The notes beneath the pieces are model-generated. The model was not told the DNA's origin, did no database searches, and worked only from the letters and a program-made list of their open reading frames with translations. DNA of 42,553 nt, from NCBI RefSeq assembly GCF_000531125.1, contig NZ_CBTK010000064.1, positions 1 to 42,553 of the forward strand, written 5' to 3'. This document shows positions 6,370-13,468 of this stretch, piece by piece. How positions within the stretch are numbered: position 1 is the stretch's first letter; every line of letters starts with the position of its first letter. The translations under genes and the position numbers were made by a program. Origin of the DNA: Candidatus Contendobacter odensis Run_B_J11. Lineage in GTDB: Bacteria > Pseudomonadota > Gammaproteobacteria > Competibacterales > Competibacteraceae.

Positions 6370-6822
6370 CTAGTAACAAGTTGGTTGGTAATAGTAGTGA
6401 TAGTACCGGACATAATAGCCTCTGGTCTTCTTGCCTGCTTCATCGGCAAGAGCCAATATCTCGGCTTTATTTTTATCCGATTCCCGGGCAATTTTTCGGG
6501 CTTCGTCCAACCATTCTTTTATAACGTCAGCGGCTGGCTGAGCCGCAGCAGATGCTGCTGCCTTGTCAGGAATGATTTCCTTAACGCGGCTTTCCTTCAG
6601 CATGCGGGCCGCAGAGATCAAAGCGATGGGATCCTGCTGGGCTTTGCCGTATTGTGCGATTTCGCTCGCAAATTTTGCCCACCCTGCTGCCTGAGCAGCG
6701 GCGATTTCAGTTTTCGCTTTATCGTCGGAGCTATTGTCTTCAGCGACAGCCAAACCAACGGTAGCCGGCAGAACAAGGATGGCGGCGATAAACACAAAAA
6801 ATTGTCTGAGTGCAGCTTTCAT
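6370..6822 (-). CDS. Small exported protein with a tyrosine-rich C-terminus
   Basis: This 150-aa protein is of unknown family. Residues 1-27 form a clear Sec signal peptide (basic start, hydrophobic core FFVFIAAILVLPATVGLAVA), so the product should be periplasmic or secreted. The middle is Ala/Lys-rich and probably helical. The last 17 residues (RGYYVRYYHYYYQPTCY) contain nine tyrosines and one cysteine, which is very unusual. AGAGGAG lies 6-7 bases before the ATG. It is the last gene of the exported caspase cassette, 234 bases after the caspase/DUF4384 gene, so it may be co-transcribed or separately promoted. No catalytic motif is visible. Confidence 0.65.
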   Translation of the reverse strand: MKAALRQFFVFIAAILVLPATVGLAVAEDNSSDDKAKTEIAAAQAAGWAKFASEIAQYGKAQQDPIALISAARMLKESRVKEIIPDKAAASAAAQPAADVIKEWLDEARKIARESDKNKAEILALADEAGKKTRGYYVRYYHYYYQPTCY

Positions 6823-7056: not shown

Positions 7057-8814
7057 TCATGGCCCAGTAAAAACGCTATGGATGCCTATTTGGTGTTTGA
7101 TTGCTTGTAGATGACGATCCAGAACGGCTTCAATCTGATTAGCCTTTTGGCCGCCATTCATGTCCTGAAGTTCCTTATGCAACCCTGTTAGCGGCTTTTC
7201 GCTGAAAATGACTACGAAATGATCGCCACCATACGGAGGGTCCACGTTAAGATTCAAGAGGTAGGGTTGATTCATCGGAACCTCCAAGGGGTCTTTAATT
7301 GTTCCATCCTGGATAGGATAGAGATAATTAATAGTGCCATCGGATGCAATATTGAATAAAGTTAGACAAGGATATTTCTGGTTACTGGTTTCCAAGGTCA
7401 CTTGTTCGCCAGCGCGATGGAGGCGATCATTTGGCTTTAATACGATAGTCGGACTCACTACCTCGCTACGTTTCTTAACGCGCTCAACAGCGATCAGTTT
7501 GTCGAATACCTTGGTTGCATAAGCGATTTCAACGCCACCAACAGGGGCAGCGGCTTGCGTCTTTGCCCGTGAAAACGCTCTGGTTTCCTGGATCTTCTGT
7601 TGACGACCATCATAGATCACATCGCCAAGTTGAGAAAATACCTTCTCTTTACCAATATCCCAAATAGCGTTAGCAGTTTGATTATTATTAGTGGTTTTCG
7701 CCTGACCGAGGATCGGTCGCCATTGATTTTCAGCGAGAGCATGAGGCACATTGGTGACAAATACCGTGAATTCCGTTGGCTGTTTCGCGGCGGTGGTGGT
7801 CGCTACTTCTGCATTGGCAGATGGTTTCCCATCTCCTTCATGAGCAGACGGCGGCCTGGCATTGATCGGGATGGAAAAATCGACGCCACCGCCGGAGAAC
7901 TGCGGCGTCTGTTGCCCGTCAGTGAGCATGCGAACGTTTTCGGTGACGAGGTGCTGAAGCCTTTCGCTGGAAATCCCTCGCGCCTTGTTGGCAACATCAA
8001 AACGCAAGACCTTGGCGAAGGCCATGCTCAAAGCAGCTCGGGGTTGTTTGGAATCGGGGTCGGTGATTTCGACTACTTCCTGATCATCAGCAACAGCGCC
8101 GATACCGAGAACATTACTGGCAACCCCGCGATCATTAACGATTTCCCCCTTCTTAGCGCTGGCAATAACGTTTTCTCCTCCCCGGCCTTTAGAACCGTAG
8201 AGTGCAGTAAGCGCATCGTTTTCGATATTGAGAGCGGGAATAGAACGTGTTTTAAATTTTTTTGGCGCAGAAAAGGCGCGGGTCATGGTTCCGGAATGGC
8301 AGGAATCCGCGATGAACAGGATTTTCAGATCAGGCGTTTCCCGAAATAAGGCATCTATCTCATCATCAACGATGCGCTGATAGCTCGTTTGACCGCGATC
8401 AGCGAAATTTGCCAGAATAAAATTTTCATCCAGGCCGGACTGTTCCGAATTGGCTACATGCTCCTTCTCCTGAGAACCGTGACCTGCATAAGCAAAGACA
8501 AGAACATCGTCTTTTTTAGCTTGGCTGGTGAGAGATTTCCATTTGCTAAAAATGCTATCCCGATCTGCTTCCTTGTCCTGAAGCAAAATGACTTGCTTGG
8601 CTCCAGCTTGCCTGAGCGCGTCAGCGATGTCGTTGGAATCGTTAACCGCTCCATCCAGTGTTGGGAAGCTTTGATAGTCGTTAACGCCAATGATTAAACC
8701 ATAGAGATCAGCCGCACTAACCGGGGTCGCCGCGAACAGGATAGACAGCCAAAACAACCAACCTGTCCCAACGAGATGATGGGTGATTGATAGAAAGGAA
8801 CCGTGTTTTTTCAT
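7057..8814 (-). CDS. Exported caspase-like (peptidase C14) protein with C-terminal DUF4384 domain
   Basis: This is a prokaryotic caspase homologue of 585 aa. Residues 1-35 form a signal peptide ending near PVSAA, so it should act in the periplasm or outside. The caspase domain (about 37-320) has the catalytic His112 in AYAGHGS and Cys172 in IADSCHSG. Residues about 455-545 resemble DUF4384 (KPNDRLHRAGEQVTLE, then LYPIQDG). The linker before it contains TRAFSR at 411-416, and a related TRAFSA follows the catalytic Cys at 178-183. Enzymes of this class usually cleave after Arg or Lys, so such sites could be processed; that is inference. GGAG lies 6 bases before the ATG. It starts 64 bases after the WD40-caspase gene, which indicates an operon. 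Confidence 0.85.
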   Translation of the reverse strand: MKKHGSFLSITHHLVGTGWLFWLSILFAATPVSAADLYGLIIGVNDYQSFPTLDGAVNDSNDIADALRQAGAKQVILLQDKEADRDSIFSKWKSLTSQAKKDDVLVFAYAGHGSQEKEHVANSEQSGLDENFILANFADRGQTSYQRIVDDEIDALFRETPDLKILFIADSCHSGTMTRAFSAPKKFKTRSIPALNIENDALTALYGSKGRGGENVIASAKKGEIVNDRGVASNVLGIGAVADDQEVVEITDPDSKQPRAALSMAFAKVLRFDVANKARGISSERLQHLVTENVRMLTDGQQTPQFSGGGVDFSIPINARPPSAHEGDGKPSANAEVATTTAAKQPTEFTVFVTNVPHALAENQWRPILGQAKTTNNNQTANAIWDIGKEKVFSQLGDVIYDGRQQKIQETRAFSRAKTQAAAPVGGVEIAYATKVFDKLIAVERVKKRSEVVSPTIVLKPNDRLHRAGEQVTLETSNQKYPCLTLFNIASDGTINYLYPIQDGTIKDPLEVPMNQPYLLNLNVDPPYGGDHFVVIFSEKPLTGLHKELQDMNGGQKANQIEAVLDRHLQAIKHQIGIHSVFTGP

Positions 8815-8878
8815 CGAGGTCTCCTGCCTTCAAGCATGCAACGTTGTGTTTCACGCTATAGCGTCGGCTTCACGCGGT

Positions 8879-11800
8879 TCAATTCTTAATGGCGGTCAAA
8901 GGGAACGCTAACCGGGTTAAATCATTGCCACGAGGAATTGCCGCCGGGCGTTGGGTGTATTTGGGCTGCCGTTTACGAATCTCCATGATTTCATTGTAAA
9001 CGAAGCTGGCGATTTGAAGCGCGGTTACCTTTGTGTCGCGCCGGCCCGCCGCATCTCCATTGAGTCCCATAAGCACGGCATAACCAAAAAGGCCGTTACC
9101 CGAGCGTTTGTTATCCACTGTGATGTACTCGTCAGCAGCCTCCTCCCCAGCGCCGGCAGCGGCGATCATGAGTAACTCTCCAAAACTCTCGCGTGCTTTG
9201 GAGAGCGCCTCAGACTGCTGATCCAAATCGCTGCTTTTCACGTCATAAGCTCCCGAATGACAAGAATCGAGAAAAATAAGAACATGGTTCGCTTTATCGG
9301 AAATTTTTGCCAATTTTTCTCCAAGCACTTTCTGGGAAATGGCCGTCTGCACATAATCATTAACGAGTGAATTCTGGGGGATAAAATAGTAGATATTATT
9401 ATTATTCATTCCGTGCCCAGCCAAATAAACTACTACGGTGTCCTCCCGAGAGGTAATTTGATTGGCAATCTGATCTAACGCCTTTTCGATTTCCGCACGT
9501 GTGGCTTGCTGATCATACAGGCGCAAAACGGAAGCTTTGCCGAAATCTGAGCTTGCATTCTTTTCCAGCAACGCTGCGACATCCTGGGCGTCCTTAACCG
9601 CGAAACGCAAGGTGACTCCGGCTTCACGGTACTGATTTATTCCTATCGATAGGATGTGAAGTGTGGGTTTTTGGCCTCGCGTCGCTATTTCAGCGGGAGC
9701 GGCCACTGCCGGGACCACCAGTTCCACAAGGCTGCTTTTACCATTGGCCCTGTTGCGACCATCGGAGGCCCGCACTTGGAGTCGGTTCACTCCTGGGTCC
9801 AGTTCCAGATCCCGTTCCAGAATGACTTCGCCGTCCTTCACCGTACTCTCCGTGACGGGAGTTGATGAAGCATTTGCGACTGACGCGGCGACCGCCCGTG
9901 AAAAGCCACGTGTTTTAGCGTCGGCGTTTTCTACGACAACGCCATTGCGCAACAGGTGAATCTCACCCACGCCGCCATTTCGTTCCTTGAGTTTAAAGCG
10001 CAATCGCACCCGATTTTTACCCATGGGAAGTTCATCCCGTTGCAATACCGGTTCCTCTTGCTTGATTTCGGGCGCAACCGACGCGGTTGTCATTGGGGTA
10101 GCCGGGGTAGCCATGAGTTGCTGGGTCCGGGAAAAGGCGCGTGTGGCCCCTTTTCCAATAGGAAAACAGGAACCTGTGCCCGTTACTGGGGTTGTAGCAG
10201 CAACAGGGGGCGTGGCAACCGGCGTCGCCGAGGTCGCAACCGGCGTTGAGGCAGGGGCCACCCGCCGAAAGGCGCGGGTGAGAGAGTCGGTTTTCTCCAG
10301 CAGACAATACTCAATCAATTCCACCTCTGGGACTGGCGCAACAAAAAGCCCGTTAATGACCTCTTGCGCCTGGGCGAATTGGGTTTGCAGAGCGGCTTCA
10401 TGTCCGCCCATCATCTTTCGGCTCAACAGCGATGGCGAGTAGAAACTCTGATAAAGCTGGCCGAATGTGATCCATTCGGGGGTTTTATTAGCGCCGCGAT
10501 TCAGGTGATAGCCCGCCAGATTTTTACCGCCGTCCATGGAGTGGGCAAAGAAACCCTCTTTCGTCCATGCAATCCAGCGTGCGCCGTCCACGCTGAGAAA
10601 AAGGACGGCAAATTTCTCAATGCTGGCTTGACGACCAGGCTGGCTTGGTTGCAACCGATACCAATGTAGAGCGCCATCGGCCAGGGCGGCCACCAAATAG
10701 CGGCCATCCCGGGAGAGATTGACCCCATAAGCCGCCGCAGGCACATCCACTTTAACCAGTTCTGCGCCTTGAGCGTTAAACCAACGCATATAAAAGTCCG
10801 TCCCCAAGACAAACCCACTATGATCCGGGGCAATAGCCAGGCTGCGGGATGTCTCGTTACGGGCCAGCGCAATAGAGTGTTTTTTCATAAAAATCGGCGT
10901 TGTGGCGCCTTCCCATTGATCAACCGGCAAGAGGACATCATGAGTGATCGGTGGGGTCAATCCCGAGTCTCGAGGGGGATTAATCGTTAGTTCCTGCCGA
11001 GACAAGTCGAAGCGAGCCACCTGCTGAGAGGTAAGCCGCCACTCCACTACCAAGCCGTCGGCGGAAAGGGCGAAATGATGGCGAAAGATGCCGCGAAAAT
11101 CGGTAATGGGTGAATCATGACGGGCGAGGGAACGACCCTCTGGAGTGATGATTCCCCAAGAGGGTTCCGCCGTGGCATAAAGCCATGCCCCATACGGCAG
11201 GGTAGCCAGACTGGTGATCGTATTTTCTGCTACCGGCATATCCACCGGGTTGCCGCCGCTTTGCGGCCAGCGTCGAATCATTCGTTGATCGCCCTTGCCA
11301 GCGCCACCCGCAGCCAATAAGTCTCCATTTGACCAAGCGACCGAGGAAAGATTTTCTCCAGCCAATCCCTCGACGCTCGGACTTTGCACGACCTTGCCAT
11401 GAGTGGCATCAATGAGGTCTACTTTAACTTTATCCTTGTAGCCCACTGCGAGAATGCGGCCATCTTCGGAAAAGGCAAGGCCATAGGGTTGTCTTCCACC
11501 GCTACCTTTTACCTGATGGAGGAGCTGGATTTGAGCGTCGTAAATACGAATAAAACCGTCATCACTACTGGTGGCCATACGTCCATCATTGGCAAAGGCG
11601 ATCCAGTTACAGGAAAAACCATATGTTAAATCTTCTGCCACTTTTTTGCCGGTGGCGCTATCCCAAACCATGATGCCCTTGGCGCTGCCAAAGGCTGCAG
11701 CGAAACGGATTCCATCCGGGGAATAGGCAAGGTGGAGGATTTCCGAGGGCAACTTGGAAAGACGGTTCTTCATCCGCAGGCTTGAGGTATCGTACAGATA

Positions 11801-12211
11801 AAGAGCGAAGGTGTTTTCATTATTAGTAATAGCGCCGGCAAGAATCGCGGTTTTGCCATCAGGAGAGAGCGCGCCCGCATAAATGGAACCGTCGAGACCC
11901 TCGCCAATAGGGACGCGCAGCACACCCCGAAGATCGCCTCCGGGTAGATTCCACAGGCGAGCAGTTTTGTCGTCCGAGACGGTGAGAAGTAACGTTCTAT
12001 CCTGGTTCAACGAAATGCGGTTAATAATAGCCGTATGCTCGCCCGCTTCAATGCGCAAATAGGGCGACTCCGCTGCTGCTGGAGCCGGATCGGCTAAAAC
12101 TTGGAAAGATGTTGTCAGTACAGTGAGAAGCAGAGTAATTAACCAGTGTTTGTGAGAAACAATGGAAGATTGCGGACAAGAAAAAATCTTTTTAGTATTA
12201 CAGGAGTCCAT
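8879..12211 (-). CDS. Exported WD40-like beta-propeller and caspase fusion protein
   Basis: This large protein has 1110 aa from the chosen start. A long signal peptide ends near QVLADPAPAAA (about residue 45). Residues about 50-560 hold WD40-like repeats (for example LLLTVSDDKTARLWNLPGGD and IRFAAAFGSAKGIMVWDSAT). A linker rich in Ala, Thr and Pro follows (about 640-720), then an Ig-like beta segment (about 725-835) and a C-terminal caspase domain with His933 in YLAGHGM and Cys984 in FLDSCHSG. TRAFRR (645-650), TRAFSR (690-695) and TRGFSR (767-772) recur in the linkers. Start 12211 has an AGGA 8 bases upstream; ATG 12274 has none. The propeller could bind a target that triggers the protease; this is inference. 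Confidence 0.82.
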   Translation of the reverse strand: MDSCNTKKIFSCPQSSIVSHKHWLITLLLTVLTTSFQVLADPAPAAAESPYLRIEAGEHTAIINRISLNQDRTLLLTVSDDKTARLWNLPGGDLRGVLRVPIGEGLDGSIYAGALSPDGKTAILAGAITNNENTFALYLYDTSSLRMKNRLSKLPSEILHLAYSPDGIRFAAAFGSAKGIMVWDSATGKKVAEDLTYGFSCNWIAFANDGRMATSSDDGFIRIYDAQIQLLHQVKGSGGRQPYGLAFSEDGRILAVGYKDKVKVDLIDATHGKVVQSPSVEGLAGENLSSVAWSNGDLLAAGGAGKGDQRMIRRWPQSGGNPVDMPVAENTITSLATLPYGAWLYATAEPSWGIITPEGRSLARHDSPITDFRGIFRHHFALSADGLVVEWRLTSQQVARFDLSRQELTINPPRDSGLTPPITHDVLLPVDQWEGATTPIFMKKHSIALARNETSRSLAIAPDHSGFVLGTDFYMRWFNAQGAELVKVDVPAAAYGVNLSRDGRYLVAALADGALHWYRLQPSQPGRQASIEKFAVLFLSVDGARWIAWTKEGFFAHSMDGGKNLAGYHLNRGANKTPEWITFGQLYQSFYSPSLLSRKMMGGHEAALQTQFAQAQEVINGLFVAPVPEVELIEYCLLEKTDSLTRAFRRVAPASTPVATSATPVATPPVAATTPVTGTGSCFPIGKGATRAFSRTQQLMATPATPMTTASVAPEIKQEEPVLQRDELPMGKNRVRLRFKLKERNGGVGEIHLLRNGVVVENADAKTRGFSRAVAASVANASSTPVTESTVKDGEVILERDLELDPGVNRLQVRASDGRNRANGKSSLVELVVPAVAAPAEIATRGQKPTLHILSIGINQYREAGVTLRFAVKDAQDVAALLEKNASSDFGKASVLRLYDQQATRAEIEKALDQIANQITSREDTVVVYLAGHGMNNNNIYYFIPQNSLVNDYVQTAISQKVLGEKLAKISDKANHVLIFLDSCHSGAYDVKSSDLDQQSEALSKARESFGELLMIAAAGAGEEAADEYITVDNKRSGNGLFGYAVLMGLNGDAAGRRDTKVTALQIASFVYNEIMEIRKRQPKYTQRPAAIPRGNDLTRLAFPLTAIKN

Positions 12212-12382
12212 GATGTAATCCTGATTAGGTTCGGGATGGATTCTCGAAAATGCCAAATGAGATAAAGTTCGCATTGAATTTGGAAAAATACCGATTATCT
12301 AGGTAGGAAGCGGATGGAGGGAGGAGGAAGGAAGCAGCGCATCCCTCCGTTTATCCCCCTCAAACCCGTTTACCACTTATTA

Positions 12383-13468
12383 TCACGAAGCCGCTTTTTC
12401 TCCTCGCGCCTTGATTATATAGGCAAGGCTGGGGCGATGTTCCAGCAGACTGGTTTTTTCATAACCGTCGTCCGCCACGGCCACTTCATTTTGATAATTC
12501 TTAGCCGTCCTAACAGTAGTTTCCGCCTTGTTCTGAGTAGAGGAAAACTTGGAAGCGAGTTGCACAGCCTCGGGCTTGCCACCCGTTTTCCTATTAACCT
12601 CTTTCTTTGTATCGGCTGCCTTTTTAGCCGCAATTTTGCGATTTTCAAGCTCCGCCGTCGGCTTTTTGTTGGCGGATCCTTTCCGATTTTTAGCGATATC
12701 TCTATCGATTTTTGCCACCTCCTGCATGTATTCTCTATCAATTTGTTTGTTATTGACATCGATGCGTTTTTTCGCTTCCCGCTGTTCTGCCGGCGTTAAC
12801 CTGGAGATGTCAAATTCGGCCACCATCTGATCATTGGCGTACTGGTATTCTTCCTGGCGCTTGCCGATATTCTCGGCCACCATCTGCATCAGATTGTTAT
12901 CGCGGCGGACTTGTTCTTGGAGTTGGCTCCAGCGGCGTTGCGCTTCGCCTCTGGATATCCGTTTAGCGGCGTAAGCGGCGCGAATCCGGTCACGCTCTCC
13001 CACGCGACAAGCAATCAGTGCTCTGACCGCTATATCTGCTTTATCCAGCTCGTTGGCTTCTCGGGTCAGGTCGTTTCTAATTACTAAAACGGCCTGATCA
13101 CGACCTTGTTCCATACGGCTCTTGTAGTAACCGCCAATAGCCCCAGCCACTCCGCCTACGGCAGCGCCAATCAGGGCGCTTTTGGCGATATCGTGACCAG
13201 ACCGCCCTGATAGGGCAGCGATAAGCCCACCGGTCAGTGCCCCGGTCGCCGCCCCGGTCGCCGCCCCCTTGATCATATCCTCGGCGAAGAAATTGCCGGT
13301 AGAATCGAGCGCTACCACATTGGAGCGACAAAGATCTGAACCATCATCAGGGCCAATGCGTTCCTCGCGAGTTAAGGGCGTAGCACAACTGGTGAGCATC
13401 AGAGTACTCGCTACCAAGGCGATTGTCTTAAGATTGATGTGCCGGGGGACAATATTACAATACAGCAT
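12383..13468 (-). CDS. Glycine-zipper lipoprotein with coiled coil
   Basis: This 361-aa protein has a lipoprotein signal: a hydrophobic segment ending LMLTSC, with the lipid-carrying Cys at about residue 28. Residues about 65-115 are a glycine-zipper segment (GAATGAATGALTGGLIAAL, then ALIGAAVGGVAGAIGGYY) that could insert into or associate with a membrane. Most of the rest (about 120-330) is charged and helical, likely coiled coil. It is the first gene of the minus-strand caspase cassette, with AGGGAG 8 bases before the ATG and 171 bases separating it from the WD40-caspase gene. Its position suggests a membrane anchor or effector partner for the caspases. That role is inference; no known specific function is recognised. 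Confidence 0.72.
   Translation of the reverse strand: MLYCNIVPRHINLKTIALVASTLMLTSCATPLTREERIGPDDGSDLCRSNVVALDSTGNFFAEDMIKGAATGAATGALTGGLIAALSGRSGHDIAKSALIGAAVGGVAGAIGGYYKSRMEQGRDQAVLVIRNDLTREANELDKADIAVRALIACRVGERDRIRAAYAAKRISRGEAQRRWSQLQEQVRRDNNLMQMVAENIGKRQEEYQYANDQMVAEFDISRLTPAEQREAKKRIDVNNKQIDREYMQEVAKIDRDIAKNRKGSANKKPTAELENRKIAAKKAADTKKEVNRKTGGKPEAVQLASKFSSTQNKAETTVRTAKNYQNEVAVADDGYEKTSLLEHRPSLAYIIKARGEKAAS

Follow-up and report, generated by a model that had tools for sequence, protein, structure and literature searches.

A shared arginine motif as a candidate processing site in two adjacent caspases of Candidatus Contendobacter odensis

The window analysed in this work is the whole 42,553-nucleotide contig NZ_CBTK010000064.1 of Candidatus Contendobacter odensis Run_B_J11 (assembly GCF_000531125.1). 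The window contains a row of genes encoding two caspase proteins, termed cas1 and cas2, and a small protein, termed sp. Both caspases carry copies of the motif TR[AG]F[SR]R and sp carries a related motif. The motif copies are probably processing sites, directed by Arg, in a cascade of two exported caspases. An earlier sequence-only reading of this DNA had suggested mutual processing sites. This suggestion is partly supported by the conservation of the linker sites, by the near-absence of the motif elsewhere, and by the concerted change of the sites in other lineages. A docking motif would leave a similar trace.

Motif copies and caspase proteins in the window

The three genes and the motif copies that they carry are listed below.

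8879..12274, minus strand: cas1, probably exported protein with WD40, immunoglobulin-like (Ig-like), and C14 caspase parts (Pfam WD40 and PF00656; orthologue alignment)
7057..8814, minus strand: cas2, probably exported C14 caspase with a C-terminal DUF4384-like domain (Pfam PF00656)
6370..6822, minus strand: sp, probably exported protein of 150 aa without a Pfam family, candidate substrate
10262..10279, minus strand: TRAFRR, cas1 linker between the WD40 propeller and the Ig-like part (translation; TRAFRR in 5/5 row genomes)
10127..10144, minus strand: TRAFSR, second linker site of cas1 (TRAFSR in 4/5 row genomes, TRAFVR in G003)
9896..9913, minus strand: TRGFSR, loop in the Ig-like part of cas1 (TRGFSR in 5/5 row genomes; TRDYRR at the corresponding loop of G366, by eye)
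7567..7584, minus strand: TRAFSR, cas2 linker between the caspase and the DUF4384-like domain (TRAFSR in 5/5 row genomes)
8266..8283, minus strand: TRAFSA, post-Cys loop of cas2, the version found here of the CHSGxxTR loop seen across the family
6406..6426, minus strand: TRGYYVR near the C-terminus of sp ([TS]RGY[YW]xR in 5/5 row genomes; [ST][RK]G in the homologues of G366, G114, and G073)

The four linker motifs described by the sequence-only reading are all translated from the minus strand at these positions. TR[AG]F[SR]R occurs four times in cas1 and cas2 (mean of 0.00025 and maximum of one copy in 20000 shuffles); this expression was taken from the earlier reading, so the comparison is a check and not a blind test. 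Among the open reading frames (ORFs) of the window with at least 90 aa, TR[AGST][FYW] is confined to the adjacent cas1, cas2, and sp. The third motif-bearing protein, sp with its TRGYYVR, was missed by the earlier reading. The Ala/Thr/Ser/Pro-rich stretch that was said to follow each motif is clear after the three cas1 copies, where these residues make up 0.84, 0.52, and 0.52 of the next 25 residues (protein mean 0.30), but not after the cas2 copy (0.36; protein mean 0.27). TRAFSA has the sequence and the place reported for it after the catalytic Cys of cas2. It is not a weaker copy of the motif but belongs to the family-wide loop, which exhibits TR in 14 of 25 C14 ORFs and Arg or Lys in 20 of them. 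The five C14 ORFs without Arg or Lys in this loop are of the cas1 type.

Both caspases belong to family C14, with PF00656 scores of 57.8 bits for cas1 and 61.1 bits for cas2 (cut-off 21.4). Both have the dyad His (GHG) and Cys (DxCHSG), which are kept in the aligned full-length orthologues, and an Asp two residues N-terminal of the Cys. The start of cas1 is likely near 12211 as indicated by orthologue comparison, and its Ig-like part was assigned by eye. The DUF4384 match of cas2 is 25 bits, under the cut-off of 27 for that family. The N-termini, judged by eye, suggest that cas1, cas2, and sp are probably exported. Metacaspases, which are Arg/Lys enzymes, are the nearest relatives of cas2 among solved structures (best E 2.3e-8, sequence search), and no solved relative of the cas1 caspase was found in this way. 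The S1-pocket residues of TbMCA2 include Asp95 and Asp211, according to the available part of the report (PMC4357240). In the TbMCA2 alignment, D59 and D170 of cas2 stand opposite these residues, with the offset in chain numbering being inferred.

Conservation of the gene row and the motif sites

A cas2 search over 115 genomes, own genome included, identified cas2 at 66-100% identity in five genomes: G000 (own), G003, G019, G021, and G024. sp was identified in five of the 39 genomes of the family, which are the same five that contain cas2 at 66% identity or above. The order cas1-cas2-sp is present in all five genomes, and the four linker sites are kept in all of them (one site is TRAFVR in G003). 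In the four full-length cas1 proteins that were aligned, all six motif residues are invariant, against only one or two of the 20 residues after each site. The cas2 site of G019 is directly preceded by a deletion, yet the site is retained. The insert that carries the cas2 site is absent in six related caspases from three nearby genomes, which exhibit a gap at that place when aligned with cas2. The G003 copy of the row is broken, with cas1 split into two overlapping ORFs and a TGA within cas2, which is due to either decay or assembly error. Broken caspase genes were observed in G073 (L082) besides G003 (L047).

The sequence-only reading had also stated that the DNA is similar each time. This holds inside the motif (12-15 of 18 bases, as the amino acids require) but not in the flanks, where 6-15 of 30 bases agree in the window and 5-18 of 30 in other lineages. 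The motif codons also differ at silent positions between orthologues. Because the codons differ and the flanks are unlike, selection works on the protein and not on a DNA repeat.

Motif dialects in other lineages

The sp profile search matched five of the 369 class genomes, the own genome being one of them, and led to G366, which belongs to another family. G366 has the same three genes and exhibits [ST]RDY[RV]R four times over its two caspases: SRDYRR and TRDYRR in cas1, SRDYVR and SRDYRR in cas2. Its motif Ser codons are AGC, TCG, and TCA, so the motif is not copied DNA. Another search, with a related caspase as the query, matched 32 of the 398 phylum genomes and added motif-bearing relatives of cas2 from four more families. 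The motifs of these relatives and of their neighbours are as follows.

G438 and G492: cas1 TRGFRR, TRGFSR, and TRGFAR; cas2 TRAFKR
G447: cas1 TRGRGR and TRGRSR; cas2 TRGRGR twice
G451 contig 153: cas1 TRGLSR twice; cas2 TRALKR
G407: WD40-caspase TRGFARVEP and GRGFGRVDP; cas2 TRAFGRVAA
G451 contig 110: cas2 TRAFVRISPE; adjacent divergent TPR-CHAT protein QRGFVRVEPG inside the CHAT domain (L158:5133-7763)
G545: cas2 SRGFVR; no motif-bearing neighbour seen

G451 exhibits two dialects in one genome, with TRGLSR/TRALKR at one locus and RAFVR/RGFVR at another. The plasmids of Azospirillum lipoferum, A. ramasamyi, and A. oryzae encode a cas1 with SRAFARAK twice, in the linker and in the Ig loop, in all three species; the related row is present in the soil bacterium A. 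lipoferum 4B. Among the 28 C14 ORFs listed, seven (window included) have [TS]R[AG][FR]x[RK] in a linker and 21 do not. No such motif was seen in the Rhizobium etli relatives (the caspase and its neighbours). Viral contigs scanned by pattern with the cas2 of G438 gave no hit, and phage records returned one weak match to residues 40-182 of cas2.

At L175 (Rhizobium etli CFN 42 p42e), a protein at 8503-11049 combines trypsin, C14 caspase, and DUF4384 (Pfam) and is flanked by a second caspase on one side and a protein of the serpin family on the other. This locus is a candidate for a further protease network, one that includes a candidate inhibitor.

Co-variation of sites between partner caspases

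In six lineages (the window, G366, G438, G447, G451 contig 153, and G407), the sites of cas1 and cas2 were extracted by a mechanical match to the expression [TS]R[AGD]xx[RK], which was chosen after these proteins had been seen. Azospirillum (no cas2 site), G451 contig 110 (partner motif starts with Q), and G545 (no cas1) were left out, and so were G492 and four window orthologues, which represent the same lineages. Residues 4-5 are left free by this expression. On these residues the true pairing of cas1 with cas2 ranks first of 720 permutations by BLOSUM score and second of 720 by identity, and on residue 4 alone the figure is 6/720; six lineages are few for a permutation test. The sites of the partner caspases co-vary over the six lineages. 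The sites of cas1 and cas2 are not mutually homologous, so the shared motif is not explained by operon descent alone. One shared reader, most simply the active sites of the caspases themselves, would produce such shared dialects.

The shorter form [TS]R[AG] was counted outside the post-Cys loop. In 25 C14 ORFs, which include the window and its orthologues and are not independent, 52 occurrences were found against 18 expected. In 16 chosen proteins, a set biased by this choice, 25 were found against 2.3 expected. In 33 ORFs intended as a control, 10 were found against 3.9 expected, three of the 10 coming from the motif-bearing row of G492, which belonged outside the control.

Scarcity of the motif outside the gene row

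The sequence-only reading had called for a genome scan for the motif. A degenerate DNA pattern for TR[AG]F[ST..]R was used, which accepts Ser in place of the first Arg and overlooks RR written with CGN codons. In the five genomes, 49 pattern places were found, 14 of them within the rows, against 81 for the reversed-pattern control. Of the 35 places outside the rows, 15 encode Ser instead of Arg at position 2 and the other 20 were read. Among these 20, five ORFs (87-253 aa) contain the motif in frame, each overlapped by a longer ORF. The pattern for TRGYY occurs at 29 places, four of them in the rows (reversed control 105), and none of the three outside places read, out of 25, is in frame within an ORF of at least 80 aa. 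Genome-wide enrichment of the DNA patterns over the reversed control was not found overall (5 against 4 in one scan), the pattern exceeding its control only in G024 (16 against 15) among the five genomes. G366 has 18 pattern places, four of them in its row, and only one other in frame, SRDYLR in a 488-aa ORF.

The motif is nearly absent outside the rows in the five genomes. The same site is present in the enzyme and in its partner and is restricted to the system, with one exception: at G000:C286, an in-frame TRAFSR precedes the probable start codon of an ORF that resembles a membrane protein and has no Pfam match, and this TRAFSR may be translated. At L162, the gene downstream of cas2 encodes a hybrid sensor kinase with TRAFRR and TRAIRR, the latter inside a receiver domain. 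Both were taken as chance because the corresponding kinase of G438, 87% identical, has MRAFRR and TRAIRQ instead.

Wider family of sp

Homologues of sp were identified in nine of 398 genomes of the phylum (own included); the proteins read come from genomes other than G420, G679, and G759. The homologues exhibit a helical-looking N-terminal part and mostly a beta-rich-looking C-terminal part, the latter being missing in the window lineage. Of the 15 sp-family proteins read, 13 have [TSV][RK]G at the equivalent position, with Arg and Lys exchanging. No Pfam family was matched by sp and five homologues, which were examined with regard to a gasdermin-type substrate. G685 and G711 have one sp beside a caspase of 700 aa, and G418 has three sp near such a caspase. 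The 700-aa caspase exhibits [TS]R[AG] at three places: after the Cys, in the linker that comes next, and in the tail at the C-terminus. A caspase of this type in G114 is on a different contig from sp, and the neighbour of sp in G691 is a CHAT-like protein (by eye).

The three tandem sp-like genes at L106:9279-10668 have differing tails, one of which contains Tyr as the tail of the window sp does. The tail of the window sp, 18 residues from TRG on (6373-6426), is rich in Tyr and His and has one conserved Cys. This tail could be a released peptide.

Proposed cascade and alternative explanations

The motif sites are located where cuts would part domains. In the proposed cascade, the propeller-bearing cas1 would be a sensor or an assembly scaffold that keeps its own caspase domain behind the propeller and the Ig part, and cas2 would be its partner caspase. 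One of the caspases would cut [TS]R|[AG] bonds, or bonds after the second Arg, in itself and in its partner. Such cuts would separate the caspase domains from the WD40 and Ig parts and from DUF4384. The small protein sp would be a substrate trimmed near its end, and in relatives it would be cut from the second, beta-rich-looking part. The first Arg is the likelier P1 residue because C14B enzymes prefer Arg or Lys and because Arg and Lys exchange in the sp family. We tentatively extend this proposal to Pseudomonadota at large, where exported caspase pairs of this kind would form a family of zymogen cascades. Each operon would have its own cut-site code, common to the sensor caspase, the partner caspase, and the third protein where present (sp or the CHAT protein). 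The operons would be insulated by protease-site co-evolution, and two codes could coexist in one genome as in G451.

Several observations weigh against the processing of the motif sites. The motif is longer and stricter than proteases specific for Arg or Lys usually need. Alanine at the cut sites of a yeast metacaspase did not block maturation, as given in the available part of the report (PMC9622860), and for this reason the strictness hints at docking. Among the sites themselves, 12 of the 20 residues after the cas2 site are invariant, which leaves a weak contrast with the motif there. G366 has Asp after the presumed P1 Arg, unexpected under a rule of small residues at that place, and the G is missing from two of the three sp-like proteins that G418 encodes in tandem. 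Among the enzymes, the Azospirillum cas2 proteins lack the linker site (four proteins, three of them beside a cas1), the cas1 of G447 reads DTCFGG and not DxCHSG, and Ser156 of TbMCA2 aligns with an Ala of cas2. The tracking of the linker motif by the post-Cys loop is suggestive but not significant (identical in 4/9 lineages, p ~0.08). AlphaFold2 models of the C-terminal half of cas1 and of cas2, built from two-row alignments, had a predicted local distance difference test score (pLDDT) of 37 and 33 and were not used. No cleavage at the motif was found in the literature searched.

The main rival is a docking motif. The segment would bind, uncut, to a groove of the partner, such as a caspase exosite, the active site as a pseudosubstrate, or the DUF4384 or Ig-like part, and it would hold the proteins together or inactive. 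The six to seven nearly fixed residues, which include an aromatic or aliphatic residue at position 4 (Arg in G447) and the second Arg, exceed what P1 recognition needs. Several copies per protein would give avidity, and the shared dialects suit any single reader. Against this, the sites are located at domain borders, with flexible linkers after them in cas1, as cut sites are, and the exchange of Arg and Lys in the sp family suits a basic P1. Docking is considered rather unlikely, with a chance that is still worth weighing.

It is improbable that another exported Arg-specific protease of the host cuts the motif with the caspases as its targets, although each motif has two basic residues and the three proteins look exported. 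A general host protease would be expected to find its motif in unrelated exported proteins, and that motif would not vary from operon to operon. Even less probable is a tag for binding or modification unrelated to proteolysis, such as surface anchoring, glycosylation of the Ala/Thr/Ser/Pro stretch, or recognition by an export factor. The low-complexity stretches after three of the four copies would suit such a tag, but those of cas1 drift freely while the motif is fixed, and a general host factor would not explain dialects that differ between operons and even between the two G451 loci. The small in-frame mobile or duplicated element that the sequence-only reading gave as its alternative, arguing that absence elsewhere in the genome would speak against it, would account for several similar segments in one locus but was rejected as having a negligible chance: the codons differ between copies and orthologues (Ser as both AGC and TCN in G366), the flanks are unlike, the positions are fixed, and no spread outside the row or scattered copies in unrelated genes were found.

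Comparison with known systems

The Rickettsia palindromic elements are repeated in-frame segments in coding DNA. The motif copies resemble them as repeated in-frame segments, but no DNA-level repeat was found here. To our knowledge, the natural targets of bacterial caspases are mostly unknown.

The window caspases share with the prokaryotic caspase homologues (orthocaspases, C14B) the C14 domain, the His/Cys dyad, the Asp before the Cys, and the expected preference for Arg or Lys. They differ in the operon-specific linker motif that is common to two caspases and a small protein. Bacterial caspases are known to have WD40 as their commonest extra domain and to occur in operons with several caspases, according to the available part of the survey (PMC3501461). 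A text search for TRAFSR returned no paper, and none of the titles and beginnings of abstracts listed dealt with such a motif. An operon-specific linker motif common to two caspases was not found in the literature searched, whereas WD40 caspases and multi-caspase operons are known.

The maturation of CgMCA-I involves cuts at several linker Arg/Lys sites (Arg307, Lys263, and Arg54), which resembles the several sites proposed here. The available part of that report mentions no common motif around its sites (PMC9622860), whereas one motif spans different proteins in the window. MaOC1 of Microcystis is a bacterial caspase whose antitoxin substrate is encoded beside it and whose cut sites could not be determined, as far as the available text of the report goes (PMC7935541). 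The window likewise has a caspase beside a candidate substrate gene, but MaOC1 belongs to a toxin-antitoxin module. The library of defence systems matched the window proteins only with a generic 'caspase' model.

The sequence alone names a pair of enzymes and a small candidate substrate, sp. It also names five bonds, spread over three proteins, as candidates for cleavage, and a sixth if the post-Cys loop is counted. The natural dialects supply matched and mismatched peptides for a direct test.

Other features of the caspase loci

An EF-hand-like loop was observed in the cas2 of other lineages (L080 and L157), and Pfam EF-hand_5 is matched below its cut-off in G366 and G407. The corresponding loop of the window cas2 looks degenerate, and calcium control may have been lost there.

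The first gene of the row does not carry the motif.

12383..13468, minus strand: lipoprotein-like protein with a YMGG glycine zipper (Pfam PF13441)

A glycine-zipper lipoprotein-like neighbour is also located upstream of cas1 in L044-L047, G366, G438, and G492 (likeness by eye), and an annotated YMGG-like protein is located beside cas1 on three Azospirillum plasmids. The glycine-zipper protein is possibly a membrane anchor or an effector of the caspase system.

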